Shown one piece after another: positions 15,363 to 34,683 of a stretch of 64,000 bases of DNA. Positions within the stretch are counted from its first letter, which is position 1; each line of letters starts with the position of its first letter. Source of the stretch: Geomonas azotofigens (GTDB lineage Bacteria; Desulfobacterota; Desulfuromonadia; Geobacterales; Geobacteraceae); assembly GCF_018919395.1 (NCBI RefSeq), contig NZ_JAHLME010000007.1, forward strand, positions 1 through 64,000, given 5' to 3'. Under the pieces are notes generated by a model. It did no database searches. It had not been told where the DNA came from and saw nothing but the letters and a program-made list of their open reading frames with translations. The position numbers and the translations under genes are program-made.

Positions 15363-15789
15363 AATACTGATTCTGTTGATGATGCCGCTCATGGCCTGCC
15401 TGCTCTTTGCCTGTGCCAACACCAAGAGCGGTGCGCTGATCCACCCTGAGGCGGTGACCGGTACGCCCAACTGTACCGAGTGCCACACCGATGCCTATGC
15501 GGCGATGAACCACCAGGCCGTCGACTTCTTCAAAAAGCACAGCGTCTTCGCCAGCAACGCCAGAAGGGCCTGTGCTTCCTGCCACGCCGAATCCTTCTGC
15601 TCCGACTGCCATGCGCACAAAGAAGAGCTGAAGCCGAACGTGAAGTTCTCCGAGGCGGTGGAGAGGAACCTGCCGCACAGGGGCGACTACATGAGCCAGC
15701 ACAGGATCGACGGCAAGATCAACCCTGCGTCGTGCGCCAAGTGTCACGGGCGTACCAACAACGAGAGGTGCCTGACATGCCACAAATGA
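15352..15789 (+). CDS. Pentahaem c-type cytochrome lipoprotein, module 1
   Basis: A 145-residue protein with lipobox LFAC (Cys21), so lipid-anchored. Five canonical haem motifs follow: CTECH, CASCH, CSDCH, CAKCH and CLTCH, the last four residues from the C-terminus. His-rich linkers (NHQAVDFF, PHRGDYMSQH) supply candidate distal ligands. GTG 15352 is chosen because AAGGGGGG precedes it and the residues before it are not signal-like; it lies inside the porin gene. The 13-base overlap with the next gene suggests translational coupling. It probably sits in or below the porin and passes electrons between periplasmic carriers and surface cytochromes (inference). The mature protein is identical in sequence to its module 2 copy. 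Confidence 0.9.
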   Translation: MKSKILILLMMPLMACLLFACANTKSGALIHPEAVTGTPNCTECHTDAYAAMNHQAVDFFKKHSVFASNARRACASCHAESFCSDCHAHKEELKPNVKFSEAVERNLPHRGDYMSQHRIDGKINPASCAKCHGRTNNERCLTCHK

Positions 15790-16448
15790 CGACCAAAGTT
15801 CTGTCTTTTGCCGTTCTTGGTGCGCTGGCGCTGGCCCTGTCGGGATGCGGGGATGCCAACCCGCAGGCGAAGTTCGACCCCGCGTCCGGCAAGCATCCTG
15901 CCAACTGGCTCCCGACCGGTCACAGCGTGGCCGCCGAGGAAGACATCAGCGGCTGCGCCGAATGTCACGGAGAAGACCTCAGGGGCGGTGGTATCGCCAA
16001 AAAATCCTGCATGAACGATCCGGTAAGCGGCACGGGGTGCCACGCCGGCAGCGCCACCTCGGTCCACCCGGTCCTGTGGGGGCAGGTAGCCTACGTCATG
16101 CACCCGGGCTACGTCCAGGCCAACGGCAGCGCGTCCTGCGCGGTCGCCGAATGCCACGGCACCGACCTCCTCGGCGGTGCCAGCGCCCCCTCCTGCGGCA
16201 TCAACTGCCACGGGGGCGGGACTGCCGCAGCGCCCCAGATTCACGCCTGGGGTGGCGCCAGCGCGACTACGTCGGCAGATATCACGGGACACATCCAATG
16301 GATGGCGAACCCGTTCACCCACGTCAATGGTCACTTCAATTACGCGTCCTGCCGTAATGAATTCTGCCACGGCGCCAATCTGCAGGGCGTCTGGTTGAGC
16401 GGGCCAGCATGCACCAAGTGCCATAACAGCGGAGCACCGGCGGAGTAA
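15777..16448 (+). CDS. Hexahaem CxxxxCH/CxxCH-type cytochrome lipoprotein, module 1
   Basis: A 223-residue lipoprotein (lipobox LSGC). It matches the Geobacter CxxxxCH...CxxCH family (TIGR01904-like). Six candidate haem sites are seen with unusual spacing: CAECH; a CX9CH site (CMNDPVSGTGCH); CAVAECH (CX4CH); CGINCH (CX3CH); CRNEFCH (CX4CH); CTKCH. The paralogue in module 2 has CLTCH where this copy has the CX9CH site, so the spacing has changed at the same position. Start ATG 15777 has AGAGGTG upstream and overlaps the pentahaem gene by 13 bases, as in modules 2 and 3. A location in the outer membrane next to the porin is inferred. Confidence 0.85.
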   Translation: MPQMTTKVLSFAVLGALALALSGCGDANPQAKFDPASGKHPANWLPTGHSVAAEEDISGCAECHGEDLRGGGIAKKSCMNDPVSGTGCHAGSATSVHPVLWGQVAYVMHPGYVQANGSASCAVAECHGTDLLGGASAPSCGINCHGGGTAAAPQIHAWGGASATTSADITGHIQWMANPFTHVNGHFNYASCRNEFCHGANLQGVWLSGPACTKCHNSGAPAE

Positions 16449-16499
16449 TAGCCTGATTGTTCCTTCATTCACCCGATCAAAGCAGAAGGAGAACTTAAC

Positions 16500-18002
16500 A
16501 TGTGTATTCCCTGGAAGAGACACATAGCCGCCGCTTTGCTGCTCATTTGCCTGCCTTTGTTGGTCATCGGCTGCGGTGGCGGCGGAGGCGGCGGTGGCAC
16601 GAGGACAATCTCAGGCGTCGCGACCAAAGGGCCGATCGCCGGGGGGCTGATTTCGGTGTACCGGTTGACCACGGCCGGTGTGCGCGGGGCCCTGCTCGGC
16701 TCCGGAACAACCGGCGCGGACGGCAACTACGCGGTCAAGATCCCGGCCTCCGTTACCGGGCCGCTCGTAGTGACTGTAACCGGCCAGCCAGGCGCCACCT
16801 ACCTGAGCGAGACTACCGGCCAGCAGGTCCCCTTCACGGCAGCTGAGTCCTTCAGCGCCGCCGTGGACAACTTCAACCCGGCTGTCCCCGTCACGGTGAG
16901 CCCGCTCACCGAGGCGGCCTTCGAGAAGCTGCCGCTGATCCTGGCGCAGAAGCCGGGCACCATCACCACCGAGGTGCTGCAGAGCTCGGTCGTCGCCGCC
17001 AACAACCAGGTCGGCGACCTGTTCAACGTCACCGACATCCTGGCGCCCCCGGCCGGCAACGCGGCCTATGTAGCGGCCCTTACCGTCATCGACCAGATGA
17101 TCGTCGACTCCAAGGCAACGGGGTCGGTCACCGATACCACCGCCGTGACGACCATCATCAACCAGGCCGTGGCCGACGTCAGCACGAGCGCTCCCGCCTA
17201 CCAGACCTTCGCGCAGCTGTTCACCATCTCTGCCACAGAGGCCGTGGCGGCCGACCCGTCGCTCACCACCGCGGTGGGGACCCTGACCCAGTCGATCACC
17301 AATCCGCCGGCTGAGCCGAACTTCAGCGACGTAACCGCGCCTTCCGTGGTCACCGGCCTCACCGCTACCACCTACGCGCTCAACGCGACCACCAGCGCCG
17401 TTGTCCTCAACTGGAACCCCTCCACCGACAACATCGCCGTGGCAGGCTACGACATCTACCGCGACGGCGGCAAGGTGGGAAGCTCCACCACGACCAGCTT
17501 CACCGATCCGGCGGTGACCCCCAACGTCACCTACTCCTACACCGTGGTCGCCTTCGACGCGGCCGGCAACTTCGCCGCAGCCAGCGCACCGTTGTCGGTG
17601 AAACCGAACCAGGCGTCGCTCAACGTGACGGTGAGCGGTTCCATCTCCAGCGACCTGCTGTCGCGCCTGGATATCGTGGCGCCCACCGCTCCGACGAGCC
17701 TCGCCGCGGTCACCACCGCCCTTACCGGCACCACCAGCTCGGTGGCCCTGAGCTGGGCCGCCGCGACCGACACCGTCGGCGTGACCGGTTACGAGGTCTA
17801 CCGCGACGGCGTGAAGCTGGCAACCGTCGCCTCGACCAGCTACACCGATCCGTCGGTCACCTCGGCCACCACCTATGCCTACACGGTTAAAGCGTTCGAC
17901 GCGGCAGGGAACCGTTCGGACTTCAGCACAGCACTTTCGGTGACTCCGAACCGCCCGTCCCTCGGGGTAACGGTGAGCGGCCAGGTGAACACCGGACCGT
18001 AA
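16500..18002 (+). CDS. Fibronectin type III lipoprotein, module 1
   Basis: A 500-residue lipoprotein with lipobox VIGC; the lipid-bearing Cys is followed by eight Gly. Residues 35-105 form a carboxypeptidase-regulatory-like beta domain (SGVATKGPIAGG, GTTGADGNYAVKIP). A helical middle part follows, then two fibronectin type III domains (about 280-365 and 397-485) with the shared signature GYxxYRDG and YTVxAFDAAGN. It has no haem motif. It lies between the hexahaem and decahaem genes, so it is probably a surface structural or adhesion partner, for instance a spacer for the decahaem cytochrome or a contact with minerals or other cells (inference). AGAAGGAG supports the ATG start. A homologue is in module 2, none in module 3. 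Confidence 0.85.
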   Translation: MCIPWKRHIAAALLLICLPLLVIGCGGGGGGGGTRTISGVATKGPIAGGLISVYRLTTAGVRGALLGSGTTGADGNYAVKIPASVTGPLVVTVTGQPGATYLSETTGQQVPFTAAESFSAAVDNFNPAVPVTVSPLTEAAFEKLPLILAQKPGTITTEVLQSSVVAANNQVGDLFNVTDILAPPAGNAAYVAALTVIDQMIVDSKATGSVTDTTAVTTIINQAVADVSTSAPAYQTFAQLFTISATEAVAADPSLTTAVGTLTQSITNPPAEPNFSDVTAPSVVTGLTATTYALNATTSAVVLNWNPSTDNIAVAGYDIYRDGGKVGSSTTTSFTDPAVTPNVTYSYTVVAFDAAGNFAAASAPLSVKPNQASLNVTVSGSISSDLLSRLDIVAPTAPTSLAAVTTALTGTTSSVALSWAAATDTVGVTGYEVYRDGVKLATVASTSYTDPSVTSATTYAYTVKAFDAAGNRSDFSTALSVTPNRPSLGVTVSGQVNTGP

Positions 18003-18095
18003 CAGTACCGATGATTCAAGCACAAGGGGGAAAAAACAGAAGTCGGCAGTAGAGATGGAACTATCGGAGCAGTACACAAACAACAGGAGGAAACT

Positions 18096-21000
18096 ATGAT
18101 TGGCAGAAACCTAAGGTACCTCGTAGCACTCGTAGTATGCGTGCTGTTGCCTCTCGCAGGCTGCAGCGGGGGGGGATCCACCACCAAGATCACCAGCAAG
18201 GGCACCGAAGTAACCGTCGGCGGTAAAGTCGACGTTGCCAAGGCTGCCGCCAAGACGGCGTTCCTGTCATCGACCTCGGCCGGTGCAGTCAACCACGTCT
18301 TCGTCTACAACGCCCAGGACGGCGCCCAGCTCGGCACCGCTACCCTCGGCAGCGACGGCAGCTTCTCCGGCCTGACCTTCACCCTGCCGGCCGCCAAGAC
18401 CGTGCTGGTGTTCAAGGCCATCGTGGCCCAGGGTACCTTCCGCTCCCTGGTACCGGTTGACCTGAGCAATCCTCCGACTGCCGGCGGGATCAGCGCAAGC
18501 AACCCGATCAGCATCGTGATCAGCCAGCAGAGCACCGACATCACCACTGCAACGTCGGCCATGCTCGGCCTCTCCGGCCAGCTTGGCGATGCCAACCAGA
18601 CCCTTGCTTCTGTCGGCAAGACCTACACCGACTGTGCGACCCAGGTCGTGAACGCAGGCGGCAGTGTCCTCGCTTACACCAGCACCGGTCTTGCGCTCTC
18701 CGGTACCGTATCCAACGCCAACCTGCTGCCGGCACGCGCCGCATCCACCCTGACCTATGACGACCTGAACAACACCCAGCTGGACGGCCGCGTCATCAGC
18801 GCCTACATCCCGGGCAACAACCCGATCGTCAACTTCCAGGTTGTCAACAAGGCCACCGGTAAAGGGATTTCCGGTCTGAGGACCTTCGCTCTCCACGTGG
18901 CACAGCTGAAGCCCGAAACCGCAGGGAGCAACTCCTACTGGCTCAACTACATCCTGAGCGGCACCAACCCGCGCCCGTCCTCCGACGCGGTCTCCACCTT
19001 CAACTCCACCACCGGCGCCCTCGCTACCCAGGGCTACACCATCATCGACCACGGTGACGGTTCCTACACCGCCATCTTCGGCAAGAACGTCAAGACCGTT
19101 GCCACCGTTCCGTACGACGGCAACCTGATCCACCGTATCGGCATCTCCGTCCGCTCCGTCGCAGTCCCGGGCGTGGTGGGCAAGACCCCGGGCGCCTATG
19201 CCGGCCCGATCAACCCGCAGACCAACGCAGCCACCGCCAACTTCGCAGTTCGCGGCGTGACAAACCTCATCTACGACTTCATCCCGGCCACCGGCGAGAT
19301 GTACACCGTGAACGGCGCCCAGGCATATGCCCGCGACATCGTGACCTCTGACGCCTGCAACCAGTGCCACGACAAGCTCGGCTTCTCCGGCGGCCACTTC
19401 GCTTCCCGTCCGGACACCAAGCTCTGCGTCATGTGCCACACCCCGCAGAACATCGTCGGCACCGACCAGACCACCAACGGCGACTTCACTCCCTTCATCC
19501 ACAAGATCCACATGGGCGAGGAGCTCTCCCCGGCTGAGACCATCCTCGGCGTTTCCACCGCGGAAGTCACCTACCCGCAGGACGTGCGCAACTGCGCAAT
19601 GTGCCACAAGGGCGTCGACGGCAACAACTGGAAGACCAAACCGACCATCAAGGCCTGCGGCTCCTGCCACAGCACCGTCGACTTCGCCTCCCACATGGGC
19701 GGCCAGACCAACGATTCTTCCTGCGCAGGCTGCCATGCCGGCACCACCTCCACCGCAGAGATCGCCACCGCGCATCTCCCGGTACAGGATCCGGACCCGA
19801 CCGCTCCTGAGCTTGGCGGCACCAACACCCATACCTACGCAGGCTACCTCCCGGCAGCAGGCGTGACCGTTCCGGGCGCAGCAGTAATTACCTGGGATGT
19901 GAAGAGCGTACAGCGCGACGGCAACAAGAACCCGTCCATCACCTTCCGCTTCCTGAAGGACGGCCAGCCGGTGGTATTCAACACCTACGCCGCCGGTTCC
20001 GTAACCGAGCTCATGAACGGCTTCACCGGTTCTCCGAGCGCATACTTCGCCTTCGCCGTACCGCAGGACACGCCGGTAGGTGCAACTCCTACCGCTCCGG
20101 CCGACTTCAACGCGACCGCCAGCGCGTACATCAAGAACGTCTGGAACGGCACCACCCCGGGCACCACTGCCACCCTTTCCGCCATCGACGGCAACGGTTA
20201 CTACACCCTGACCGTCAAGAACGTCATCGTTCCTGACACCGCCAAGATGCTGACCGGCGGCATCGGCTACACCTACGGCTCGGCCGCCACTCCGCTCACC
20301 CAGACCGACCTGAGCACCCTGACCGTTCCGGCAACCCTGAAGACCAAGTGGGCCTACAACGCCGGGACCAACGTCGGCGGCCTGATGGTCGTCACCCCGA
20401 ACGTCTGGAAAACCGCTACCGGCTACACCGCACGCCGCACCATCGTCAGCAACGCGAAGTGCAACGCCTGCCACGTTGCCCTCGGCATCGCACCGACCTT
20501 CCACTCCGGCCAGAGGAACGATGCACCGACCTGCGTATTCTGCCACAACGTCAACCGCGTCAACTCCGGCTGGGGCGTCAACACGAAAGACGCCATCCAC
20601 GCCATCCACGCCGGCGCCAAGCGCGTCAACAAGTTCTCCTGGGAAGTCTCCGCAGGCGACAAGTACTGGGAGATCAGCTACCCCGGTTACCTGAGGGATT
20701 GCGAGCAGTGCCACGTAGCAGGCACCTATGACTTCAGCGCTTCCGCATCTGCTGCTGCAGTTACTAGCCTGCTGCCGACCACCGTCGCAACCGGCAACGT
20801 ACCGGCCACCGTGCCGTTCATTTCCACCGGCACCGAAACCGTCCCGGGCACCTACTACGCACCGCAGCTGGTTCCGTTCGCGGGCGCTGCCCTGGGCTCC
20901 GGCTTCAGCTTCACCGGCGCCACCGGCGCCATCACTGAGGCCGCAAACACCACCCTGATCATCTCCCCGATCAGCGCGGCCTGCTACTCCTGCCACGACA

Positions 21001-21164
21001 CCGCACAGGCCAAAGCCCACATGGTGGCCAACGGTGGTTCCATCTACGAGGCACGCAGCACCGCGCTGCTCAAATCTGAGACCTGCCTGGTCTGCCACGG
21101 CACCGCTCAGAACACCCTGAACACCACGGTTCCGACCATCAAGGCCGTACACCGCTGGTGGTAA
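18096..21164 (+). CDS. OmcA/MtrC family decahaem c-type cytochrome, module 1
   Basis: A 1022-residue lipoprotein (lipobox LAGC, then a Ser/Gly spacer) with ten CxxCH motifs: CNQCH near residue 421, then CVMCH, CAMCH, CGSCH, CAGCH, CNACH, CVFCH, CEQCH, CYSCH and CLVCH near 997. They fall into two groups of five, each preceded by a beta-rich domain, which is the architecture of MtrC/OmcA surface reductases. The haem-free N-terminal 400 residues are longer than in Shewanella members. A perfect AGGAGG precedes ATG 18096. It should be displayed on the cell surface and pass electrons to minerals or other acceptors, receiving them from the module's porin complex. Confidence 0.93.
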   Translation: MIGRNLRYLVALVVCVLLPLAGCSGGGSTTKITSKGTEVTVGGKVDVAKAAAKTAFLSSTSAGAVNHVFVYNAQDGAQLGTATLGSDGSFSGLTFTLPAAKTVLVFKAIVAQGTFRSLVPVDLSNPPTAGGISASNPISIVISQQSTDITTATSAMLGLSGQLGDANQTLASVGKTYTDCATQVVNAGGSVLAYTSTGLALSGTVSNANLLPARAASTLTYDDLNNTQLDGRVISAYIPGNNPIVNFQVVNKATGKGISGLRTFALHVAQLKPETAGSNSYWLNYILSGTNPRPSSDAVSTFNSTTGALATQGYTIIDHGDGSYTAIFGKNVKTVATVPYDGNLIHRIGISVRSVAVPGVVGKTPGAYAGPINPQTNAATANFAVRGVTNLIYDFIPATGEMYTVNGAQAYARDIVTSDACNQCHDKLGFSGGHFASRPDTKLCVMCHTPQNIVGTDQTTNGDFTPFIHKIHMGEELSPAETILGVSTAEVTYPQDVRNCAMCHKGVDGNNWKTKPTIKACGSCHSTVDFASHMGGQTNDSSCAGCHAGTTSTAEIATAHLPVQDPDPTAPELGGTNTHTYAGYLPAAGVTVPGAAVITWDVKSVQRDGNKNPSITFRFLKDGQPVVFNTYAAGSVTELMNGFTGSPSAYFAFAVPQDTPVGATPTAPADFNATASAYIKNVWNGTTPGTTATLSAIDGNGYYTLTVKNVIVPDTAKMLTGGIGYTYGSAATPLTQTDLSTLTVPATLKTKWAYNAGTNVGGLMVVTPNVWKTATGYTARRTIVSNAKCNACHVALGIAPTFHSGQRNDAPTCVFCHNVNRVNSGWGVNTKDAIHAIHAGAKRVNKFSWEVSAGDKYWEISYPGYLRDCEQCHVAGTYDFSASASAAAVTSLLPTTVATGNVPATVPFISTGTETVPGTYYAPQLVPFAGAALGSGFSFTGATGAITEAANTTLIISPISAACYSCHDTAQAKAHMVANGGSIYEARSTALLKSETCLVCHGTAQNTLNTTVPTIKAVHRWW

Positions 21165-21978: not shown

Positions 21979-22477
21979 GTCTTCGGGGGGTGGATTCGGT
22001 GTCGTTAAAAGTGCAGACAGTCAATGCCCGCGCGGCACTGGCTGAGGAACTGGTGGTTACAGTCACTGAAAAAAGCGTAGCTGTATCATCTGCTATTAGT
22101 CCTGGATAATGCTTTAGGCTGATGAGATTTGTTAGAGGGTTTAAATGATTTTGTTTGGCATCTGCTGGAATAAAAAACTTTTCTGCAGCTTGCACTACAA
22201 AAAAACTGTTGTACGTTTAGCAATAGTCCTAATAGTCAAGCACATCCGAGTGAACCCCCTGTTTGGTTAAATTCATTTAATACATAGCAGCGGTTGGTGT
22301 GCCAGCACGTCTGAAAGTATTCCCGGTTGTTTCCGTTTTGATAAGTAGTTAAGGCTAATTAGCGTGATAGATAAAACCGGCGCCACTTTGTTCGCCAAGG
22401 GCGACGCCGTGACTTGCTCTCAACGCAGCAGCGGATTTCCAGAATACGGTCCACACTACGGAAAAGGAGGGGATGTC
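21979..22477. other. Leader region before cytochrome module 2
   Basis: About 500 bases, GC-poorer than the genes, without a convincing coding frame. Only short islands match the module 1 leader: AGTCAAGCACATCCGAG near 22232, the dyad block at 22299-22324, CAGCGGATTT near 22429, and the last 20 bases with the ribosome binding site. The rest has diverged fully, which makes the islands candidates for conserved regulatory sites. Confidence 0.6.
22299..22324 (+). promoter_or_regulatory. Conserved dyad block upstream of module 2
   Basis: GTGCCAGCACGTC plus AAGTATTCCC, the same pair as at 13858-13884, with one base less between them. Confidence 0.5.
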
Positions 22478-23809
22478 TTGATAAGCCACCAAGAGAAAAG
22501 ATCAGGACGCGAACAACGCAGTCTGCCGAAGATTGCGTGGGTGATGCTGGCCGCGTCGTCGGTGATGCTGGCCCAGCCGGTTATGGCTGCGGACTACACC
22601 ATCACCGGGAGCTCCAACACTTACCTGCGCATGACCAGGTCGATCAACAAGGATGACCTCTACCCGCTTTACGAGTACCTGCGCTTCTCGGTAACCGCGG
22701 CGGAGAAGGACGGCAGCGCCACCTCGCTGCACCTGGGCGCCTGGGGACGCGTCGACCTCGTCGACAAGTCGACCGACCACTACACCGACGGCGACCTGCA
22801 GTACGGTTACCTGAGCTACCAGGCGTCGAAGAACAACCTGGTGGTTAACGCCGGGCGCCAGTTCATCACCGAGGGTGTCGCCACCGAGCGTGTGGACGGC
22901 CTCTATGCGCGCAGCGACTTCGCGGCCGGCATCACGGCGGCGGCCTTCGTCGGTTCGCCGGTGGTGACGACCCCCAACTACAAGGGGGGGGACTTCATCT
23001 ACGGCGGGCGGGTGGCCCAGGGCAAGCCCGGCCTCTACTCGGTCGGCGTGAGCGCCCTCAGAAACGAGAGCGACATCGCGCGCGACCGCGAGGAAGAGGG
23101 GATCGACCTCTGGGTGCATCCGGTGAAGCAGGTTGATCTCACCGGTCGTTCCTCCTACAACTCGATCACCGACGGCTGGATGGAGCATGCCTACACCCTC
23201 TCCGTCGCCCCCATCGACGCGGTGACCCTCAGCGCGGACTTCTCGAGGATCAACTACCAGGATTACTTCTACAACGTGACCACCACGGCCTTTGCCCTCC
23301 AAAACAACGGCGGGCTGCTTGACCCCAGGGAAAAGGTGACCGCGGCCGGCGTCAGCGCAGCCTGGACCCCGGTGAAGAACCTGACCCTCTCGGCCGAGTA
23401 CAAGAACTACGGCTACGAGATTCTCGGCTCCGCGGACTACGTGGGAGGGAAGGTCGCGTACACCACCGCCAACGCCCTTTCGCTTGGGGCCTCCGGGCAC
23501 CGGATGGATGGTTCCAGCGACCGCACCCGCTACTACGACTACCGGCTCTATGCCCTAAAGAAGACGGGCCACGCCGAGTTCGGCGTCGACTTCTACAACG
23601 TCCTCTTCGATCGCCCCATCGACGGCGTGAAGAGCAGCTACGCACTCACCGGCATCGCGGGTTACGAGGTCACCGAAAAGCTCAAGGTAGGTGGGGACAT
23701 CGAGTACTCGCAGAGCCCGGATTTCGACAGGGAGTGGAGAGCGCTCGTGAAAGTTGCCTACGCTTTCGATATGAAGTGTGGCGAAAAGGGGGGCAAGAGT
23801 GAAAAGTAA
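22478..23809 (+). CDS. Outer-membrane porin of cytochrome module 2
   Basis: A 443-residue close paralogue of the module 1 porin (most residues identical, including the signal cleavage region VMAADYTITGSS and the C-terminal strand). Differences are mainly conservative and loop changes, such as an extra Asn-Gly stretch in ALQNNGGLLD. The start is TTG 22478 after AAAAGGAGGGG, in the same context as module 1, with ATGTCTTGA overlapping it. The last 70 bases are nearly the same as in module 1 at DNA level. It overlaps the pentahaem gene by 11 bases. Role inferred: sheath of a second trans-outer-membrane conduit. Confidence 0.8.
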   Translation: MISHQEKRSGREQRSLPKIAWVMLAASSVMLAQPVMAADYTITGSSNTYLRMTRSINKDDLYPLYEYLRFSVTAAEKDGSATSLHLGAWGRVDLVDKSTDHYTDGDLQYGYLSYQASKNNLVVNAGRQFITEGVATERVDGLYARSDFAAGITAAAFVGSPVVTTPNYKGGDFIYGGRVAQGKPGLYSVGVSALRNESDIARDREEEGIDLWVHPVKQVDLTGRSSYNSITDGWMEHAYTLSVAPIDAVTLSADFSRINYQDYFYNVTTTAFALQNNGGLLDPREKVTAAGVSAAWTPVKNLTLSAEYKNYGYEILGSADYVGGKVAYTTANALSLGASGHRMDGSSDRTRYYDYRLYALKKTGHAEFGVDFYNVLFDRPIDGVKSSYALTGIAGYEVTEKLKVGGDIEYSQSPDFDREWRALVKVAYAFDMKCGEKGGKSEK

Positions 23810-24919: not shown

Positions 24920-26431
24920 ATGTGCATTCCCTGGAAAAAACAGGTTGTGGCGGTCCTACTGCTCCTCTGCCTACCGCTGATTTTTATCGGTTGCGGCGGC
25001 GGTGGCGGCGGTGGCGGTGGCGGCACGAGGATAATCTCCGGCATCGCCGTGAAGGGCCCCATCATGGGCGCCCTGGTGTCGGTGTACCGGCTGCAACTGA
25101 ACGGCAGTCGCGGGGCCCTGCTCGGCTCCGGGACAACCGGCGCGGACGGCAACTACGCGGTCAAGATCCCCGCCTCGGTCACCGGGCCGGTGGTGGTCAC
25201 CGTTACCGGCCGAGCCGGCGCCACCTACCTGAGCGAGAGCACCAACGGGCCGGTCCCCTTCACGGCGGCCGATTCCTTCAGCGCGGTAGTGGACAACTTC
25301 AACCCGGACGTCCCGGTAACGGTGAGTCCCCTTACCGAGGCCGCCTTCCAGAAGCTCTCCCTGATCCTGGAGCAGAAGGCCACCGTCACCACCATCACTA
25401 CACAGGTTCTGCAGAGCGCGGTTGTGGCGGCGAACGCCCAGGTGGGAGACCTGTTCAACGTCGCCGACATCCTGGCGCCGCCGGCCCAGAGTACGGCCTA
25501 CCAGGCCGCCCTGATGGTTATCGACCAGATGATTGTCGATTCCAAGGCCGGCGGTACGGTCACCGATACCACGGCCGTCATGACCGTGATCAACCAGGCC
25601 ATCGCCGACGTCAACCCGGCCCTCCCCGCTTATCAGACCTTCGTCGACGTCTTCACCACCGCGGCTGCCCAGGTCGCCGTCGACAACCCGGGAGCAATCG
25701 CCGCGGCAGTGGTCAGCATGACCGCCCAGGTCACCAACCCGCCGCTGGAGCCGAACTTCGCCGATATCACGGCCCCGTCGGCGGTAACCGGGCTGTCGGC
25801 AACCACCGCTGCCATCGACTCCACCACCAGCACCGTCGTCCTGACCTGGACCGCGGCCAGCGACAACAACGCCGTGGCCGGCTACGACGTGTATCGCGAC
25901 GGCGCCAAGATCGGAACCACGACCACTACCACCTTCATCGATTCGCCGGTCACCTCCAACGTCACCTACATCTACACGGTGGTCGCCTTCGATGCGGCAG
26001 GGAACTTCTCGTCCGCCAGCGCACCGCTTTCCGTGAAGCCGAACCAGGCCTCGCTCAGCGTCACCGTGACCGGGCAGCTCTCCGGCGACCTGCTGGCGCA
26101 GTTGGACCTGTCGCCTCCGACTGCACCGACCGGCCTGGCGGCGGTCACCACCGCTATCACTGGCACCACCAGCTCGGTCGCGCTTTCATGGAACGCCTCC
26201 ACCGACAACGTGGGCGTCACTGGCTACGACGTGTTCCGTGACGGCGTTAAGGTCGGCACCACCGCCTCCAGGAGCTTCACCGACGCCTCGGTCACCTCGG
26301 CCATCACCTACTCCTACACGGTCAAGGCCTTCGACGCCGCCGGGAACCGCTCGGCGGCAAGTGCCGCCCTCCCGGTCACTCCGAACCGTCCGTCCCTGGG
26401 CGTCACGGTCAGTGGACAGGTAACCCCCTAG
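24920..26431 (+). CDS. Fibronectin type III lipoprotein, module 2
   Basis: A 503-residue paralogue of the module 1 Fn3 lipoprotein with the same order: lipobox FIGC, a ten-Gly run, a carboxypeptidase-regulatory-like domain, a helical middle, and two Fn3 domains (GYDVYRDG near residue 320, GYDVFRDG near 436). The Gly run is two residues longer than in module 1, as expected from slippage in a GGN repeat. AGAAGGAG precedes ATG 24920. No haem sites. Probable surface structural partner of the decahaem cytochrome encoded next. Confidence 0.85.
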   Translation: MCIPWKKQVVAVLLLLCLPLIFIGCGGGGGGGGGGTRIISGIAVKGPIMGALVSVYRLQLNGSRGALLGSGTTGADGNYAVKIPASVTGPVVVTVTGRAGATYLSESTNGPVPFTAADSFSAVVDNFNPDVPVTVSPLTEAAFQKLSLILEQKATVTTITTQVLQSAVVAANAQVGDLFNVADILAPPAQSTAYQAALMVIDQMIVDSKAGGTVTDTTAVMTVINQAIADVNPALPAYQTFVDVFTTAAAQVAVDNPGAIAAAVVSMTAQVTNPPLEPNFADITAPSAVTGLSATTAAIDSTTSTVVLTWTAASDNNAVAGYDVYRDGAKIGTTTTTTFIDSPVTSNVTYIYTVVAFDAAGNFSSASAPLSVKPNQASLSVTVTGQLSGDLLAQLDLSPPTAPTGLAAVTTAITGTTSSVALSWNASTDNVGVTGYDVFRDGVKVGTTASRSFTDASVTSAITYSYTVKAFDAAGNRSAASAALPVTPNRPSLGVTVSGQVTP

Positions 26432-26532
26432 CCATAAACGACGCAGCATCACGATCTAAAGGAGGACTTCGCCTACAGTTCAAGATGGCCACGATGAGGA
26501 ACGATGCAGGACACCAACAACAGGAGGAAACT

Positions 26533-29500
26533 ATGATCGGCAGAAACCTAAGGTACCTTGTAGCACTCTTAGTATGTGTGCTGTTGCCTATGGCGGGCTG
26601 CAGCGGAGGAGGATCCAGCACCAAGCGCACCGAGAAGGGGACGGAGGTGACGGTGAGCGGTAAGGTCGACATCGCCAAGGCCGCAGCCAAGGCTGTCTTC
26701 CTCTCCTCGACCTCGGCCGGTGCCGTGAACAACGTCTTTGTCTACAATGCGCTGGACGGTGCCCAACTCGGGACCGCAGCCATCGGTACGGACGGAAGCT
26801 TCAGCAACCTGACTTTCACCCTGCCGGCGACCAAGACCATCCTCGTGTTCAAGGCGGTCGTGGCCCAGGGCACCTACCGCACCGTGGTCCCCATCGACCT
26901 CAGCAATCCTCCTGCGGCCGGCGCTATCACCGGTTCCAACCCGATCAGCATCGTGATCAGCCAGGACAGCACCAACAGGACCGTCCTGTTGTCGCAGCTT
27001 CTCGGCCTCACCGGCGTCCTTGGCGACGCCAACCAGACCCTCGCCTCGGTCAGCAAGACCTACACCGATGCGGCGACACTGTGGGTCAACAACGGTGGAC
27101 AGCAGCTTGCCTACAGCAGCAATGGCCTTGCCCTTTCCGGCAAGTTGAGCTCCGCGGCACTGCTCCCGGCACAGGATGCCAACGTGCTCGGCTCAGAGGA
27201 CCTGAACAACACGACCCTGGACGGCTCCATCAGCTCGGTCTCCATCCCGGGGAACAAGCCGATCGTCAGCTTCACCGTCATCAACAAGGACACCGGCAAG
27301 GGTATCAGGGGGCTCAAGGCCTTCAACCTGGTCATCGCCCAGCTGCAGCCCGGCACCAGCGGCAGCCCCGACCAGTGGCTCTCCTACATGGTGACGGCTA
27401 CCAGCCGCCCCACCACCGATAGTGGCTACACCGTCATCGACAACGGCGACGGCTCCTACACCGTCATCTTCGGCAAGGACATCAAGGCCGGCACCGGCGG
27501 CATGGTCACCTACGACGCCAACCTGACCCATCGCCTCATGGTCGGGGTCCGCTCCACCCCGTCCATTGCCCAACTGAACGACGGCAGCACCCTGAGCAAC
27601 TTCTACAACGAGAAGTACTTCGTCTCCACCTTCGTCCCGGCGACCCCTGACGTCGCCCCGACCGTGGTCAAAGACATGATCACCACCGCGGCCTGCAACG
27701 AGTGCCACGGCAAGATCGGCGTCACCACCCCGCACGGCGGCCGCGGCGACGCCAGGTACTGCCTCATGTGCCACACCTCGCAGAGGGCGATCGGCCGGAC
27801 CAACGTCGCCTCCACCTCCGGCGCCTTCCCGGCCATCACCAGGGACGCCAACGGCGCCATCACCTCGGCTTCGACCTACATCGCCGACGGCGAGGTCTCC
27901 GGCGAGTTCGTGACCATGATCCACAAGATCCACATGGGCAACAAGCTCACCAAGACCAACTACAACTATGCGGGCGTACTCTTCAACGAGGTCATCCTGC
28001 CCAAGGACGTGCGCAACTGCCGTCAGTGCCACAAGGGGGACAACGCCGACCAACTCGCGCTCGCACCCCAGGCCAACAACTGGAAAACCAAGCCGAGCCG
28101 CAAGGCCTGTGGCGCCTGCCATGACGGCGTGAACTTCGCCACCGGCGCCGGTCATGCCGCAGGCGCACAGGCAAGCGACGCCAACTGCGTAGGCTGCCAT
28201 GCAGACGCCGACCTCTTGCACCAGACCGAGATCGCGACCCCGAACAACCCGAACACCCCGGCCGGCCTCACCAACTTCTTCTATGAGGTGGCCAGCGCCA
28301 CGGTCGACTCGGGCACCAACAACCTGAGCATCAAGTTCAGGATCCAGAAGAACACCGGCTCGCTCACCGCGGCCAAGACCAACGTGGTCTTCGACGGCAC
28401 CTCCACCAACCCGCTGGTCGGCTACACCGGCGGCCCGAGCTTCCTGCTCGCCTACTTCAAGGACACCCCGAACCAGCCCGCCTCGCTCTACTCGGGCGAC
28501 TACAACAACCTGGGCGTGAAGGCGGCCCAGCCGAAGTCGGTCTCCATCGCGAGCCTCGTCGGCGGGACCACCGGCACCCTGGGGACCCCGGACAGCAGCG
28601 GCTACTACACCGCGGTGGTCAACTCCGCTTCCGCCTTCCCGGTCGGCGCCACCATGAGGGCCGTGGGCCTGCAGGGTTACTTCACCCAGTCAGCCGGCAC
28701 CGGCGGCATCGCCACGGCCACCGCGCGTCACGCCCTCTCCTCGGTGAAGACCGTCACCGGCGACACCGCCCGCCGCGTCGTCATCGACCCGGCCAAGTGC
28801 GCCAACTGCCACGAGTGGTTCGAAGGGCACGGCGGCAACCGCGTGATCGGCAAGGATACCGTGGGCGAGGCAATCTGCACCCTGTGCCACGTGCCGAACC
28901 TCTCCACCTCCGGCCGCGGCGCTCAGCAGTCGCTGATCCAGTTCATCGTCGCCAACCCGGTGGGCACCTCGCTCGGCGCGGTCACCAACTTCCTGACCAA
29001 CGCCGCCTTCACCGGCACCATCAGCCAGGAAGCCAAGGACGCCATGACCGAACTGGTGGCGACCCTCGGGAGCGACCCGACCCAGTACCCCGAAGCTTCC
29101 AACAACTTCAAGGACATGGTCCACGGCATCCACGCCGGCAACAACTCGCTCGTGGTCGGCATCCCGCTCGCCTTCGTGCGCGACAGGGGGACCAGCGGCG
29201 ACTTCGACTTCAACTTCGAGGAAGTCACCTTCCCGGGCGTCCTGAAGGACTGCAGGGCCTGCCACAAAGACACCCTGACCAGCAGCGGCGCGGTCGACGC
29301 CTCCAAGGCGACCTACACCCGCATCGGTGACAAGGTACAGCCGAGCACCTGGCAGACCACGACCGGCGTGGCGCTCACCCTGCAGACCGCGGTAGGCGTC
29401 GGCAACAACGTCACCCAGGTCGACGCGGACCGCAAGTCCGTGCCCAACCTGCAGGACAAGGTGAACTCGCCGTTCACCGCCACCTGCCGCGCCTGCCACA

Positions 29501-29664
29501 GCAGGCCCAACGCCCTGGCCCACTTCGCCACCATGGGCGGCCAGGTCGACGTGAACCGCAGCGCGGTCAACCCCGCCGGTGAGGCATGCATCACCTGCCA
29601 CGGCACCACCGGTCCGAACGCCATCTGGAACGTGCACCGGTTCTCGGTCGTCGGCGACGACTAG
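26533..29664 (+). CDS. OmcA/MtrC family decahaem c-type cytochrome, module 2
   Basis: A 1043-residue lipoprotein (lipobox MAGC) with ten CxxCH motifs from CNECH (about residue 388) to CITCH (about 1019): CNECH, CLMCH, CRQCH, CGACH, CVGCH, CANCH, CTLCH, CRACH, CRACH, CITCH. The first 230 residues are very close to module 1, but the haem domains read much more like module 3 (for example NYAGVLFNEV, AGLTNFFYEVASATVD, NSASAFPVGATMRAV). It therefore looks like a mosaic. AGGAGG precedes ATG 26533; an earlier ATG at 26485 would put 16 residues before the signal peptide. Predicted surface terminal reductase. Confidence 0.93.
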   Translation: MIGRNLRYLVALLVCVLLPMAGCSGGGSSTKRTEKGTEVTVSGKVDIAKAAAKAVFLSSTSAGAVNNVFVYNALDGAQLGTAAIGTDGSFSNLTFTLPATKTILVFKAVVAQGTYRTVVPIDLSNPPAAGAITGSNPISIVISQDSTNRTVLLSQLLGLTGVLGDANQTLASVSKTYTDAATLWVNNGGQQLAYSSNGLALSGKLSSAALLPAQDANVLGSEDLNNTTLDGSISSVSIPGNKPIVSFTVINKDTGKGIRGLKAFNLVIAQLQPGTSGSPDQWLSYMVTATSRPTTDSGYTVIDNGDGSYTVIFGKDIKAGTGGMVTYDANLTHRLMVGVRSTPSIAQLNDGSTLSNFYNEKYFVSTFVPATPDVAPTVVKDMITTAACNECHGKIGVTTPHGGRGDARYCLMCHTSQRAIGRTNVASTSGAFPAITRDANGAITSASTYIADGEVSGEFVTMIHKIHMGNKLTKTNYNYAGVLFNEVILPKDVRNCRQCHKGDNADQLALAPQANNWKTKPSRKACGACHDGVNFATGAGHAAGAQASDANCVGCHADADLLHQTEIATPNNPNTPAGLTNFFYEVASATVDSGTNNLSIKFRIQKNTGSLTAAKTNVVFDGTSTNPLVGYTGGPSFLLAYFKDTPNQPASLYSGDYNNLGVKAAQPKSVSIASLVGGTTGTLGTPDSSGYYTAVVNSASAFPVGATMRAVGLQGYFTQSAGTGGIATATARHALSSVKTVTGDTARRVVIDPAKCANCHEWFEGHGGNRVIGKDTVGEAICTLCHVPNLSTSGRGAQQSLIQFIVANPVGTSLGAVTNFLTNAAFTGTISQEAKDAMTELVATLGSDPTQYPEASNNFKDMVHGIHAGNNSLVVGIPLAFVRDRGTSGDFDFNFEEVTFPGVLKDCRACHKDTLTSSGAVDASKATYTRIGDKVQPSTWQTTTGVALTLQTAVGVGNNVTQVDADRKSVPNLQDKVNSPFTATCRACHSRPNALAHFATMGGQVDVNRSAVNPAGEACITCHGTTGPNAIWNVHRFSVVGDD

Positions 29665-29832: not shown

Positions 29833-30435
29833 ATGAAAGTCCTGTTGGCTACCCTCTCATTACTCCTGATCCAGGTTGTGGAGCTGTACGCGGCGGGGCT
29901 GGGCGCGCCGACCCTCTCCGACCCCATGGCCACCCTCGCCCCTGCCGAACCGGCGGCGACCGCCAAGTTCTTCGACCCCGATCACTTCCTCACCAACGCA
30001 GGTCTCCGTTACAGCCCGAGCTACCAGTTGACGCTGGAGCCCGAGCTGGGGGTGGGGTACCGCGGTACCGGCCAGGAGCTGCACGGCGGCATCGAGCAGT
30101 CCACCCATCGGCTGCATGCCCAGGCCGGTTGGCGCCTGTCGCTGTCCGAGAGCCTCTACCTCTCTGCCGCCGCCAAGTTTTCCATCGTGACCGTGGCCAC
30201 CAAGGGGCTCGCCGGAGGCCAGGAACTGGGAGGCCGGCTCGAAACCGGCTACCGCCCCGGTTACGACTTCACCCTCGGGCGTGCGCCGCGCTGGACCGGC
30301 GAGGTGGGGGTGCACCTCACGCCGCGCACCGACCTCATGCTCTACTACGACCAGGACCCGGCCGGGGGGTGGTCCTCCACGGGACAGCACCAGGAAGAGC
30401 GGGTCGGCACCCGGTTCATCTTCAGGTTCAAATAG
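29833..30435 (+). CDS. Small exported beta-barrel-like protein, unknown
   Basis: A 200-residue protein with a signal peptide (MKVLLATLSLLLIQVVELYA). The mature part shows about eight amphipathic strands (YQLTLEPELGVGYRG, HRLHAQAGWRLSLSESLYLS, TGEVGVHLTPRTDLMLYYDQ) and ends in an aromatic strand (GTRFIFRFK) with C-terminal Phe-Lys. That suggests a small outer-membrane barrel. ATG 29833 is the only start that gives a clean signal peptide, but no good ribosome binding site is seen. It lies just before glpK and could be a minor channel used with glycerol, or unrelated; the sequence does not decide. Confidence 0.65.
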   Translation: MKVLLATLSLLLIQVVELYAAGLGAPTLSDPMATLAPAEPAATAKFFDPDHFLTNAGLRYSPSYQLTLEPELGVGYRGTGQELHGGIEQSTHRLHAQAGWRLSLSESLYLSAAAKFSIVTVATKGLAGGQELGGRLETGYRPGYDFTLGRAPRWTGEVGVHLTPRTDLMLYYDQDPAGGWSSTGQHQEERVGTRFIFRFK

Positions 30436-30464
30436 GGGACTGGCTCCGCCAGGTGCCTGTCCCC
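30435..30464 (+). terminator. Hairpin of the GGGGAC...GTCCCC repeat family
   Basis: GGGGAC pairs with GTCCCC around an inner TGGC/GCCA stem, starting at the last base of the preceding stop codon, and CTTTAAA follows. Related hairpins occur at 48488-48552 and 62159-62187. It probably ends or weakens transcription before glpK, whose ribosome binding site begins six bases later. Confidence 0.6.
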
Positions 30465-30479
30465 TTTAAAGGAGGATAC

Positions 30480-31958
30480 GTGAGCCAGCTCCTATCCATC
30501 GACCAGGGCACTACCAGCAGCAGGGCCACCCTCTACGGCGGCGATGGCGAGGCTGTCGCCACCTTTTCCCAGCCGCTCACCCAGCACTACCCCCAGCCCG
30601 GCTGGGTGGAACACGACGCCGAGGAGATCTGGCTCGGGCAGCTCGACTGCGTGCGCAAGGCGCTCTCCGGATCCGAAGCGGGGAGCGTGGCCGGCATCGG
30701 CATCACCAACCAGCGCGAGACCACGGTGATCTGGGAGCGCGCCACGGGCAAGCCGCTGCACCGGGCCATCGTCTGGCAGGACCGGCGTACCGCGGAGTTC
30801 ACGGAAAGCTTGAAGCGGGAGGGGGTGGAGCCCATGGTGCGGCAGCGCACCGGCCTTTTGCTCGACCCCTACTTCTCGGCCAGCAAGCTCACCTGGCTTT
30901 TGGATGCCGTGCCGGGGCTCAGGGCGCGCTGCGAGCGCGGCGAGGTCTGCTTCGGTACCGTCGATTCCTGGCTCATCTTCCGGTTGACCGGCGGCAAGAG
31001 CCACGTCACCGACCTCTCCAACGCGAGCCGCACCATGCTCTTCAACATCGAGACCCTCGAGTGGGACGACGAGCTCCTGCGGCTTTTCCGGGTCCCGCGC
31101 GCCATGCTGCCGCAGGTGCGCGGCAGCGCCGCCCACTTTGGTCACACCTCTGCCGCCGTGGTCGGCGCCGAGATCCCCATCACCGGGGTGGCGGGGGACC
31201 AGCAGGCCGCCCTGTTCGGGCAGGGGTGCTTCGCGCCGGGGATGGCCAAGGCGACCTTCGGCACCGGTGCCTTCGTGGTCATGAACTGCGGCACCCGCCC
31301 GGGGAGCGGCGAAGGGGTGCTCTCCACCATCGCCTGGCAACTTCCCGGGGAGACGGTGCGCTACGCGCTGGAGGGATCGATCTTCATCGCCGGTGCCGCC
31401 GTCCAGTGGCTGGAGGAGGGGCTGGGGATGATCGAGGGGCCCGGCGAGGTCGAGGCGCTCGCCCGTAGCGTGGCCGACACCGGCGGGGTCTACTTCGTCC
31501 CGGCGCTCTCCGGGCTGGGGACCCCGTACTGGGACCCCTATGCCAGGGGGGTGATCGCCGGTCTCACCCGCGGCAGCGGCCGGCCCCACCTGGCGCGCGC
31601 CGCCCTCGAGGCCATCGCCTACCAGACCGTCGACGCGGTCCGCGCCATGGAAGGGGCTGGCGGCGTCCTCCTGAGCGAGCTGCGGGTGGACGGCGGTGCG
31701 ACGCGCAACGACCTCCTCCTCGAGATCCAGGCCGACCTGCTGGGCGCTCCGGTGCTCCGTCCCCGGTGCACGGAGAGCACCTCCCTGGGAGCCGCCTTCC
31801 TGGCGGGGATCGGCGCCGGGGTGCTCGACACGGCGCGGATCGGGAGCCTGTGGGCGCTGGACCGGCGCTTCGCCCCGCGCCTGAGCCGGGAGCGCCGCGA
31901 GGAAATGCACCGCGGCTGGAAAAAATGCGTGCAACTCTCGCTTGGTTGGGCTAAGTAA
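30480..31958 (+). CDS. glpK: Glycerol kinase
   Basis: A 492-residue cytoplasmic kinase, near the usual 500, that makes sn-glycerol-3-phosphate from glycerol and ATP. Family marks are DQGTTSSRATLYGGDG (phosphate-1 motif), the substrate region QPGWVEHDAEEIW, IVWQDRRT, GTVDSWLIFRLTGG, and the second ATP region GVAGDQQAALFGQGCF plus GGATRN. GTG 30480 is preceded by AAAGGAGG. No glpF permease is nearby, so glycerol would enter by diffusion or another channel. With glpD 180 bases downstream it makes a two-step route from glycerol to dihydroxyacetone phosphate. Confidence 0.97.
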   Translation: MSQLLSIDQGTTSSRATLYGGDGEAVATFSQPLTQHYPQPGWVEHDAEEIWLGQLDCVRKALSGSEAGSVAGIGITNQRETTVIWERATGKPLHRAIVWQDRRTAEFTESLKREGVEPMVRQRTGLLLDPYFSASKLTWLLDAVPGLRARCERGEVCFGTVDSWLIFRLTGGKSHVTDLSNASRTMLFNIETLEWDDELLRLFRVPRAMLPQVRGSAAHFGHTSAAVVGAEIPITGVAGDQQAALFGQGCFAPGMAKATFGTGAFVVMNCGTRPGSGEGVLSTIAWQLPGETVRYALEGSIFIAGAAVQWLEEGLGMIEGPGEVEALARSVADTGGVYFVPALSGLGTPYWDPYARGVIAGLTRGSGRPHLARAALEAIAYQTVDAVRAMEGAGGVLLSELRVDGGATRNDLLLEIQADLLGAPVLRPRCTESTSLGAAFLAGIGAGVLDTARIGSLWALDRRFAPRLSRERREEMHRGWKKCVQLSLGWAK

Positions 31959-31999
31959 GAAAGGTGCTGGAAGCAAAGGCGTTAAAGACAAAGCGTATG

Positions 32000-32108
32000 T
32001 AACGCAAAGACGCAAAGTCGCAGAGAAAACCGGTACCGCAAGCCAAACCCCGTAGAGGCAGCCGCAGCCCAAGAAGTTTTACCTTTGCGCCTCTGCGCCT
32101 TTGCGTTA
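32000..32108. repeat. Intergenic imperfect inverted repeat, AACGCAAAGACGCAAAG family
   Basis: The left arm TAACGCAAAGACGCAAAG (32000 onward) pairs with the right arm CTCTGCGCCTTTGCGTTA (ending 32108), 26 bases each with a few mismatches and a 57-base centre. It looks like a short mobile or palindromic genomic repeat inserted between glpK and glpD; the glpD ribosome binding site begins about 20 bases after it. Confidence 0.8.
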
Positions 32109-32138
32109 AAAAACCGATTTTTGCTTGTGGAGGCAGTA

Positions 32139-33752
32139 GTGACGGACCGGAACGCGAATCTGGAAATACTGAAAAGCGGGTGCACCTTCGACATGCTGGT
32201 GATCGGTGGGGGCGCGACCGGGTGCGGCATCGCGGTCGACGCCGCCAGCCGCGGTCTGTCGGTGGCGCTCGTGGAGCGCGGCGACTTCGGCTGCGGCACC
32301 AGCAGCAAGAGCACCAAGCTGATCCACGGCGGCGTGCGCTACCTCGAGTCGGCGGTGCTGCACCGGGACCGGGTGCAGTTCAACCTGGTGCGCGACGGAC
32401 TGCGCGAGCGCAACATCCTCTTGAAGATCGCCCCGCACCTTTGCCACCAGCTCACCCTGGTCACCCCGCTCTACGGCCTGGCCCAGGTCCCCTACGTCTG
32501 GGCGGGGCTCAAGCTCTACGACCTCCTGGCCGGTGAGGCGGGCCTTGGCCACAGCCGCTTCGTCGGCCGCGGCGAAATGCTGCGCCGCTTCCCCATGATC
32601 CGGGCGGAGGGGTTGAAGGGGGGGGTGCAGTACTACGACGGCCAGTTCAACGACGTGCGCATGAACGTGGCGCTGGCCCAGACCGCCGCCAGGGAAGGGG
32701 CGGTGATCGGCAACTACGTGGAAGTGGTGGCGCTGATGCGGGAGAAGGGGAGGGTGGCCGGCGCCCTGGTGCGGGACCCGCTGGTGGGGGCCTCCTGGCA
32801 GGTCCGCGCCCGCTGCGTGGTCAACGCCTGCGGCTCCTCCGCCGACATCGTGCGCCGCCTGGACGACCCGACCGCGGCGTCCCTGCTCAGGGTGAGCCGC
32901 GGCATCCACATCATCCTCCCCGGGAGCTTCGCGCCCGCCGGCGCCGGCGTCATGATCCCCAAGACCGACGACGGCCGCGTGCTCTTCATCCTCCCCTGGG
33001 AGGGCGCCTGCCTCGTGGGGACCACCGAGGAGCCGGCCGAGGCGGGCGAAGTCCCGGTGGCCCGGGAGAAGGACGTCGACTACCTGCTGCGCCACCTGCG
33101 GCGCTACTTCAACCTGGGCGCGAAGCCGGGCGACATCACCGCCTCCTGGGCCGGCTTGAGGCCGCTGGTGCACGACCCCTTCACCGCCGACACCGCGGAA
33201 CTCGCCCGCGACCATGTCGTCAGCTGCTCCCCCACCGGGCTCATCACCATCGTCGGCGGCAAGTGGACCACCTACCGCAAGATGGCCCTGGACGCGGTCG
33301 ATTTCGCGGTCAGCAACGCGGGGCTCGCGCCCCGGCACCCCTGCCGCACCGACCGCATCGTGCTGCAGGGGGGGGAGAACTTCACCGAGGAGCTCTTGAA
33401 GGAACTGGAGCGCAAGCACGGCTTCCCCCCCGACGTCACCAGGCACCTGCACCGCTGCTACGGCGACCGATCCCTGGAGGTGGCCGGGTACTGCCGCGGC
33501 GCCCTCGGCGGGAGGCTGGTCCCGGGGCATCCCTACCTGAAGGGGGAGGTCCTTTACGCGGTGCACCACGAGATGGCCCTGCGTGCGCTCGACTTCCTGG
33601 AACGACGCGTCCCCCTGGGGCTTTTGGACCGCAAGGGGGCGCGCGCGGCGGCGCCGGTGGTGGTCGAGCTGATGACGGCGGAGCTTGGGTGGAATCCCGA
33701 GCGGCAGACGCGCGAGCTCGAGGAGGTCGCGGACGCCCTGTGCGAGGTGTGA
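32139..33752 (+). CDS. glpD: Glycerol-3-phosphate dehydrogenase (aerobic-type, FAD)
   Basis: A 537-residue FAD enzyme of the GlpD/GlpA type that oxidises glycerol-3-phosphate to dihydroxyacetone phosphate and reduces membrane quinone. The dinucleotide motif is VIGGGATGCGIAVDAASRG, followed by the family block GTSSKSTKLIHGGVRYLE. Later blocks are the substrate region TASWAGLRPLVHD and GGKWTTYRKMA. GTG 32139 has GGAGG five bases upstream. In an anaerobe the quinol would be re-oxidised through the periplasmic cytochrome chain, which makes the surrounding electron-export modules notable. The terminator at 33775 ends the operon. Confidence 0.95.
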   Translation: MTDRNANLEILKSGCTFDMLVIGGGATGCGIAVDAASRGLSVALVERGDFGCGTSSKSTKLIHGGVRYLESAVLHRDRVQFNLVRDGLRERNILLKIAPHLCHQLTLVTPLYGLAQVPYVWAGLKLYDLLAGEAGLGHSRFVGRGEMLRRFPMIRAEGLKGGVQYYDGQFNDVRMNVALAQTAAREGAVIGNYVEVVALMREKGRVAGALVRDPLVGASWQVRARCVVNACGSSADIVRRLDDPTAASLLRVSRGIHIILPGSFAPAGAGVMIPKTDDGRVLFILPWEGACLVGTTEEPAEAGEVPVAREKDVDYLLRHLRRYFNLGAKPGDITASWAGLRPLVHDPFTADTAELARDHVVSCSPTGLITIVGGKWTTYRKMALDAVDFAVSNAGLAPRHPCRTDRIVLQGGENFTEELLKELERKHGFPPDVTRHLHRCYGDRSLEVAGYCRGALGGRLVPGHPYLKGEVLYAVHHEMALRALDFLERRVPLGLLDRKGARAAAPVVVELMTAELGWNPERQTRELEEVADALCEV

Positions 33753-33774
33753 TCGGCTGTGGTGAGGCAAAAAA

Positions 33775-33810
33775 AAAGGGGGCTCCCGGTTTCGGACCGG
33801 GGCCCCCTTT
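33775..33810. terminator. Bidirectional terminator between glpD and module 3
   Basis: AAAGGGGGC-CCCGG pairs with CCGGGGCCCCCTTT, with one bulged T and a 7-base loop. An A run precedes it and a T-rich run follows it, so it can serve both glpD and the convergent hexahaem gene. Confidence 0.88.
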
Positions 33811-33834
33811 CTCTTTTCCCGGCTTCGGGACCTG

Positions 33835-34683
33835 CTAGGTGTGGCAGGCCGCGCACAGGCGTCCGGTGTTGGTCACCGTGACCTGGCTGCGGCCGGTGGT
33901 GAAGCTGACGAAGCCGGGGTAGCCGAAGCTCTGGTAGTTGGGTGTCGTCGGGGTGGTGCCGGTGATCCTGGTGCTCCCGGCGCCGACGTTGATGGTCGGC
34001 GGTGAGCCGTTGCCGTGGCAGACCGGGACGATGCATTCGGCCGCGCCGTAGGTCTGCACGTACGGGCCATGCGCGGGGAGTATGGTCGGCATGGCGATCC
34101 CGGCCCGGACCGTCAACCGTGCCGGGAACCAGTCCAGCGGGTGGACCGAGAAGGCGTTGCCGGCGTGGCAGCTCGAATCGACGGAGCCCGGTTGGTCGTC
34201 GAAGCAGGAGGGGCCGGAGTTGCGCACGCCGCGGTAGTCGGTGCCGTGGCAGAGGCTGGTGGCGCAACTGGCGGTCGCGGCGCGGGCCTGGGTCGGGAAG
34301 GTGGTGGCCAGGGCCCCCGTGGTGAGCGCGCCGGGAGCGACCCCGCCGGCGACCACCCGCTCCCTGATCCACTCGCCGTGCCGGGCGTAATCGTGGCCGC
34401 CCCACTCGACCGGGTGGATATCGACCTGGTTGCCCAGGTGGCAGCTGGTGCAGGCGACCTTGGAGATGCCGCCGCTGAAATCGGTGCCGTGGCAGGGCGA
34501 GCAGTCCTCGAGGTGCCCGATGGCGGCCACCGCGTGCCGGGCCGGCAGCCAGTCATCGGGATGGGCACCCTTGTCGGGATCGAAGTTGGCGTGGTTGTTG
34601 TTATCCCCGCAGCCGACAAGCGACAGGACCAAAAGGCACCAAAGCATGGCAAGAGCTTGAGCTGGTCTAGTTACCTGTGACAT
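33835..34683 (-). CDS. Hexahaem CxxxxCH/CxxCH-type cytochrome lipoprotein, module 3
   Basis: A 282-residue lipoprotein (lipobox LVGC). The N-terminal part after the Cys (ANFDPDKGAHPDDWLPARHAV) matches the modules 1 and 2 homologues. The haem sites are CSPCH, CTSCH, CATSLCH (CX4CH), a CX11CH site (from CFDD to SSCH, at 34165-34206), CIVPVCH (CX4CH) and CAACH, the last Cys-His at the very C-terminus. It is about 60 residues longer than its relatives because of larger linkers. ATG 34683 keeps the 13-base overlap with the pentahaem gene seen in the other modules. Confidence 0.85.
   Translation of the reverse strand: MSQVTRPAQALAMLWCLLVLSLVGCGDNNNHANFDPDKGAHPDDWLPARHAVAAIGHLEDCSPCHGTDFSGGISKVACTSCHLGNQVDIHPVEWGGHDYARHGEWIRERVVAGGVAPGALTTGALATTFPTQARAATASCATSLCHGTDYRGVRNSGPSCFDDQPGSVDSSCHAGNAFSVHPLDWFPARLTVRAGIAMPTILPAHGPYVQTYGAAECIVPVCHGNGSPPTINVGAGSTRITGTTPTTPNYQSFGYPGFVSFTTGRSQVTVTNTGRLCAACHT

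Follow-up and report, generated by a model that had tools for sequence, protein, structure and literature searches.

Three genes in a 64,000-nucleotide stretch of the Geomonas azotofigens contig NZ_JAHLME010000007.1 (positions 1 to 64,000, here called the window) encode six-haem lipoproteins, hex1, hex2, and hex3, in which the two cysteines of a haem attachment site (CXnCH) are separated by 2 to 11 residues. Judged from the sequences of these proteins and their relatives, this variation follows a rule more than it resembles drift, with length changes falling on the second member of each pair of haem sites. We put the probability at about three in four that hex1 to hex3 are the outer six-haem lipoprotein subunits of porin-cytochrome (Pcc-type) electron conduits, with their haems arranged as three pairs. 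The first site of each pair would be rigid (CX2CH or CX4CH) and the second length-tolerant, its first cysteine being anchored by a conserved preceding stretch and its second cysteine and proximal histidine being fixed; across the family, the two cysteines are separated by 2 to 17 residues. All six sites would carry covalent bis-histidine haem, the ordinary CcsBA lyases of the host would accept the wide sites, and the loops would be surface elements beside a haem that, as has been suggested for OmcZ and its CX14CH loop, tune contacts to electron acceptors or to cytochromes nearby. The sequences show the family itself, the pairing rule, the retention of every cysteine and histidine, the constraint on the CX11CH loop, and the gene context; we infer haem occupancy, the identity of the lyase, the outer location, surface exposure, and the function of the loops.

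Haem sites of hex1, hex2, and hex3

Read from the DNA, hex1 (15777-16448, forward strand) has the spacings 2-9-4-3-4-2. Sites 1, 3, 5, and 6 are CX2CH (15954-15968), CX4CH (16137-16157), CX4CH (16350-16370), and CX2CH (16410-16424), whereas site 2 is CX9CH (CMNDPVSGTGCH, 16008-16043) and site 4 is CX3CH (CGINCH, 16194-16211). hex2 (24224-24871, forward strand) shows the spacings 2-2-4-2-4-4, with a CX4CH motif (CIKLGCH, 24818-24838) as site 6, and hex3 (33835-34692, reverse strand) shows 2-2-4-11-4-2, with a CX11CH motif (CFDDQPGSVDSSCH, 34165-34206) as site 4. The spacings and coordinates given for the three proteins in an earlier, sequence-only reading of the window all match the DNA. A lipoprotein-type signal is visible in each of the three sequences, and the mature proteins contain the lipid cysteine, 12 haem cysteines, and no others. 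As there is no spare cysteine, the distant cysteine is therefore the sole possible partner for each CH. Counting of CXXCH recovers two of six sites in hex1 and three of six in both hex2 and hex3; simple haem-site counts thus miss the wide sites of these presumed surface cytochromes. CXXCH alone was counted in PMC2825233 (this and all other papers cited here are represented by excerpts).

A sequencing error, raised in the same reading as a possible source of the CX3CH and CX9CH sites, is unlikely because the odd spacings recur at other loci: the CX11CH loop is present in all 14 hex3-type proteins, CX3CH occurs at site 4 in three further loci (L009, L015, and L017), and CX9CH occurs at site 2 in one (L044). 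As the frames are open and the recurrences fall on the same sites, a frameshift or an assembly error behind the unusual spacings is extremely improbable. The CX9CH loop of the hex2-type gene at L044 (L044:2414-3010, in a related genome) differs from that of hex1 by one residue, which suggests exchange between tandem paralogues.

At E 0.1, hex1 to hex3 matched neither the GSu_C4xC__C2xCH profiles (TIGR01904/PF09698) nor the OmcA/MtrC decahaem profile (TIGR03507). The former share the alternation of CX4CH and CX2CH and were matched in larger relatives, unlike in hex1 to hex3; filing the three proteins under TIGR01904/PF09698 was dropped on account of the missing match. A sequence search of the PDB with hex1 gave a single match (E 1.2), to a molecule different from OmcZ, and a remote relation to OmcZ is possible.

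Site spacing across the family

A profile of hex1 to hex3 matched 27 of 48 genomes of the family, counting the 4.97-Mb genome that contains the window. A second profile covered the first pair of haem sites in 17 larger relatives and was applied at E 1e-8 to the best 40 candidates or fewer per genome. In the order, it had matches in at least 91 of 141 genomes and in at least 22 of 29 genera; relatives contain up to about 30 haem sites. The hexahaem proteins were selected as open reading frames (ORFs) with exactly six CH (32 distinct ORFs), and 31 of these were aligned after omission of L007, which has an unread residue. Outside this set stands L054:2580-3059, a closely related short open frame that has four sites and appears truncated.

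Sites 1, 3, and 5 have the spacings 2, 4, and 4 in all 31 aligned proteins. The variable positions are site 2 (2, 5, 9, or 11 residues), site 4 (2, 3, or 11), and site 6 (2 or 4), and the tree requires at least seven changes of spacing state, every one of them at site 2, 4, or 6. The same pattern was found in 41 relative ORFs from 40 loci, where 139 of 336 second sites, and none of 342 first sites, exceed CX4CH; as the search profile contained sites 1 and 2, the count begins at site 3. These loci were hand-picked from the order-wide match list, nearly all from outside the family of the window (L208 lies inside it); their site numbering begins where the profile match begins, the counts include related proteins and internal repeats, and sites that follow a CH with no cysteine in range, as well as one upstream CH of L058 taken as spurious, were left out. 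Four first-position sites in this order set are CX3, each being the last site of an ORF with an odd site count. When both sets were grouped at 60% identity, an excess of wide sites was seen at second positions in 38 of 42 clusters and at first positions in none, with four ties, in a count that takes in sites 1 and 2 and thus positions belonging to the search profiles. The sequence-only reading had described spacing that drifts between paralogues at equal positions. While the variation itself is borne out, drift is not an apt term for it, because length changes are confined to the second site of a pair.

Its further statement that wide spacings are rare applies to other multihaem ORFs of the same loci, in which 3 of 1312 sites in 103 ORFs exceed CX4CH, but fails within the family, where 261 of 1252 sites in 89 ORFs do so; ORFs entered this comparison only if they had at least four CXXCH motifs and passed a density threshold, and the family ORFs include some five-haem ones of weak similarity. 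Wide sites also differ from narrow ones in sequence. In 220 of 256 distinct contexts of wide sites, compared with 163 of 899 narrow ones (sites 1 and 2, part of the search profiles, included), the first cysteine is followed by a hydrophobic residue; wide sites mostly begin with C-[FLMY], and the residue after that is most often N or S. The CMND of hex1 and the CFDD of hex3 agree with this signature. It is conceivable, at somewhat less than even odds, that these sites constitute a distinct class of haem attachment motif, approximately [SG]-C-[FLMY]-[NSD]-x(n)-C-H, located, within one lineage of conduit cytochromes, where the second haem of a pair is attached, and matured by ordinary CcsBA, its loop being an evolvable element for contact with acceptors or partners.

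Linkage to porin-like and five-haem proteins

The fetched loci contain 63 pair-type cytochromes, in two batches of 22 and 41. A homologue of the five-haem protein of the window is encoded directly upstream in 52 of the 63, and a porin-like protein of the window's kind lies within 3.5 kb upstream in 55; among the misses, L202 has just 132 bases of upstream sequence. Because of this linkage, the hexahaem proteins are probably the outer component of porin-cytochrome conduits.

Atypical motifs in such cytochromes were already noticed in 2014 (PMC4245776), where Pcc outer-membrane cytochromes with CX3-15CH motifs are described, including six-haem ones with five-haem partners; binding of haem by CX3-4CH is said there to have been shown elsewhere, and that by CX>4CH was left for determination. 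The Pcc clusters of that paper (GM18_3461, GM18_3467, GSU_2724, and others) resemble the hex units, by description rather than by sequence, in combining a porin-like protein, a five-haem cytochrome, and a six-haem outer cytochrome with expanded motifs, but its excerpts contain no pairing rule, count of distal ligands, or test of constraint. ExtEFG of G. sulfurreducens (GSU2726-2724; PMC6148476), likewise compared by description, has a porin, putatively matched in the hex units, and shares the pentahaem lipoprotein, and PMC4245776 counts GSU_2724 among the proteins with atypical motifs; ExtEFG differs in having a dodecahaem cytochrome in place of six haems, and ExtG is predicted to be periplasmic (PMC6148476). 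In literature excerpts covering a small part of the relevant papers, the pairing rule was not found stated, and neither were the count of ligands and the constraint on the loop.

Retention of candidate haem ligands at the wide sites

Exactly 13 cysteines are present in all 31 aligned mature proteins, corresponding to the lipid cysteine and 12 for six haems. Twelve histidine columns are invariant, six being the proximal ligands of the motifs and six lying elsewhere as candidate distal ligands, and no other column has histidine in 20 or more rows; by this count, the invariant histidines are what six bis-histidine haems need. As the set was chosen for six CH, the motif histidines are partly selected, whereas the six non-motif histidines and the distant cysteines are not. 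For the CX11CH loop of the 14 hex3-type proteins, the ratio of nonsynonymous to synonymous substitution rates (dN/dS) is 0.043, compared with 0.274 for the remaining codons other than those for cysteine and histidine, and 5 of 143 other 11-codon windows in these proteins have a proportion of nonsynonymous differences (pN) as low. By these measures the loop is under strong purifying selection. A precedent for an occupied wide site is OmcZ, a Geobacter surface cytochrome, in which haem 1 sits on a 14-residue loop, the vinyl groups are bonded to cysteines, and each of the eight haems has two histidines (PMC9473688); loss of the haem 1 loop suppressed the reduction of soluble acceptors, as cited in PMC11208441. 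OmcZ differs in having eight haems, in forming filaments, and in having its wide site at haem 1 (PMC9473688).

Several points weigh against six occupied sites matured by ordinary lyases in a rule-bound family. The length of the site 2 loop is unstable among close relatives of hex1 (2, 9, and 11 residues), so that the evidence of constraint applies to the CX11CH loop alone. As the wide site of OmcZ is that of haem 1, this protein does not necessarily follow the pairing rule. Fast change of multihaem cytochromes in Geobacter has led to the question of whether they are simply drifting (PMC12977616). The CX15CH site of Wolinella requires a special lyase (PMC6976685); the MccA/SirA sulfite reductases concerned share with the proteins described here the presence of an expanded motif, but are octahaem enzymes with one CX15CH-type site and, in Wolinella, with that special lyase. 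Five pair-type cytochromes (L078, L088, L096, and L176, and L198 at 3.7 kb) have a CcsA or CcsB gene no more than 4 kb away. Finally, sequence searches of the PDB with hex1 and one large relative yielded no useful solved relative, and the AlphaFold2 models were too poor for use, with a mean predicted local distance difference test (pLDDT) score of 43.1 for hex1 and 41.4 for hex3.

The sequence-only reading had left the choice between a tolerant lyase and lost haem. Wide sites that are haem-free and decaying, or serve just as disulfide or structural elements, would fit both the rarity of wide spacings in other multihaem ORFs and the unstable loop length at site 2. Decay is at odds, however, with the retention of both cysteines and the histidine at every site of the 31 aligned proteins at an exact cysteine count, with the invariance of the six candidate distal histidines, with stronger constraint on the CX11CH loop than on the remainder of its protein, and with the occupied CX14CH site of OmcZ (PMC9473688). 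Dead sites are accordingly judged quite unlikely from the ligand bookkeeping and the loop constraint, and the wide sites most likely keep their haems. Attachment through a single thioether, with the distant cysteine free, is less likely still, given that this cysteine is retained throughout, that no spare cysteine is available for a disulfide, and that OmcZ provides a precedent for attachment (PMC9473688). If occupied, the wide sites would represent a natural series in which the cysteines of one site are separated by 2 to 17 residues, and this series could serve to probe the limits of haem lyases and the role of the loops in extracellular electron transfer.

A dedicated CcsBA-type lyase, analogous to CcsA1 for the CX15CH site in Wolinella, is a further alternative to ordinary maturation. 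It would agree with the five neighbouring CcsA or CcsB genes and with the several lyase matches in the window's own genome, where ResB was matched at four places and CcsA at five; on the contig of the window itself, neither ResB nor CcsA was matched at E 0.001. Yet 5 of 63 pair-type cytochromes is few, even though many of the fetched flanks span only 5 to 10 kb. The CcsA clade of L088 is represented in 10 of 48 genomes of the family by 15 matches, of which two adjoin pair-type cytochromes, and has no match in the genome of the window at E 1e-60. For the other 13 matches, 12 loci were fetched, 11 with nearby multihaem ORFs that contain CX2-4CH only and one with none. As a general rule, the dedicated lyase, promising at L078, L088, and L096, was abandoned in view of this distribution and the small number of adjacent lyase genes; a special lyase is possible but not a general answer, and we consider it rather unlikely as the explanation of the wide sites, for which maturation by ordinary CcsBA lyases is preferred. 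At L088, L078, L096, and L176, CcsBA-type lyase genes stand directly beside very large relatives.

Gene units around hex1, hex2, and hex3

In all three units, genes for a porin-like protein and a five-haem cytochrome precede the hexahaem gene. The five-haem cytochrome of unit 1 (15331-15789, forward strand) has CX2CH sites throughout and a lipoprotein-type signal, and its gene overlaps the start of hex1; those of unit 2 (23778-24236, forward strand) and unit 3 (34671-35105, reverse strand) likewise have only CX2CH sites. The five-haem protein of the window is also weakly similar to multihaem ORFs of other genera, located there ahead of larger cytochrome ORFs. The putative porin-like proteins are encoded at 13953-15362 (unit 1, forward strand, with weak library matches below the cut-offs), 22364-23809 (unit 2, forward strand), and 35105-36406 (unit 3, reverse strand).

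Units 1 and 2, both on the forward strand, continue after the hexahaem gene with a protein of the fibronectin type III kind and an OmcA/MtrC-family decahaem cytochrome. The former is a lipoprotein-like protein with a match to fibronectin type III domains in unit 1 (16500-18002) and a protein of similar translation in unit 2 (24920-26431); the latter are encoded at 18096-21164 (TIGR03507, 387 bits) and 26485-29664 (TIGR03507, 359 bits). The two units form a tandem pair (13979-19135 and 22420-27533), with 90 to 96% identity in 300-base bins over 14201-16000 and 66 to 67% in the next two bins, inside the hexahaem gene; it looks as though the porin and five-haem genes had been kept alike during divergence of the outer cytochrome. 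Between units 2 and 3 (30129-33752) lie ORFs whose translations resemble glycerol kinase and glycerol-3-phosphate dehydrogenase. Unit 3 is adjoined by a stop-to-stop frame with ten CX2CH sites by simple count (36508-39348, reverse strand), and a further frame with five CX2CH sites is found at the edge of the window (62745-63998).

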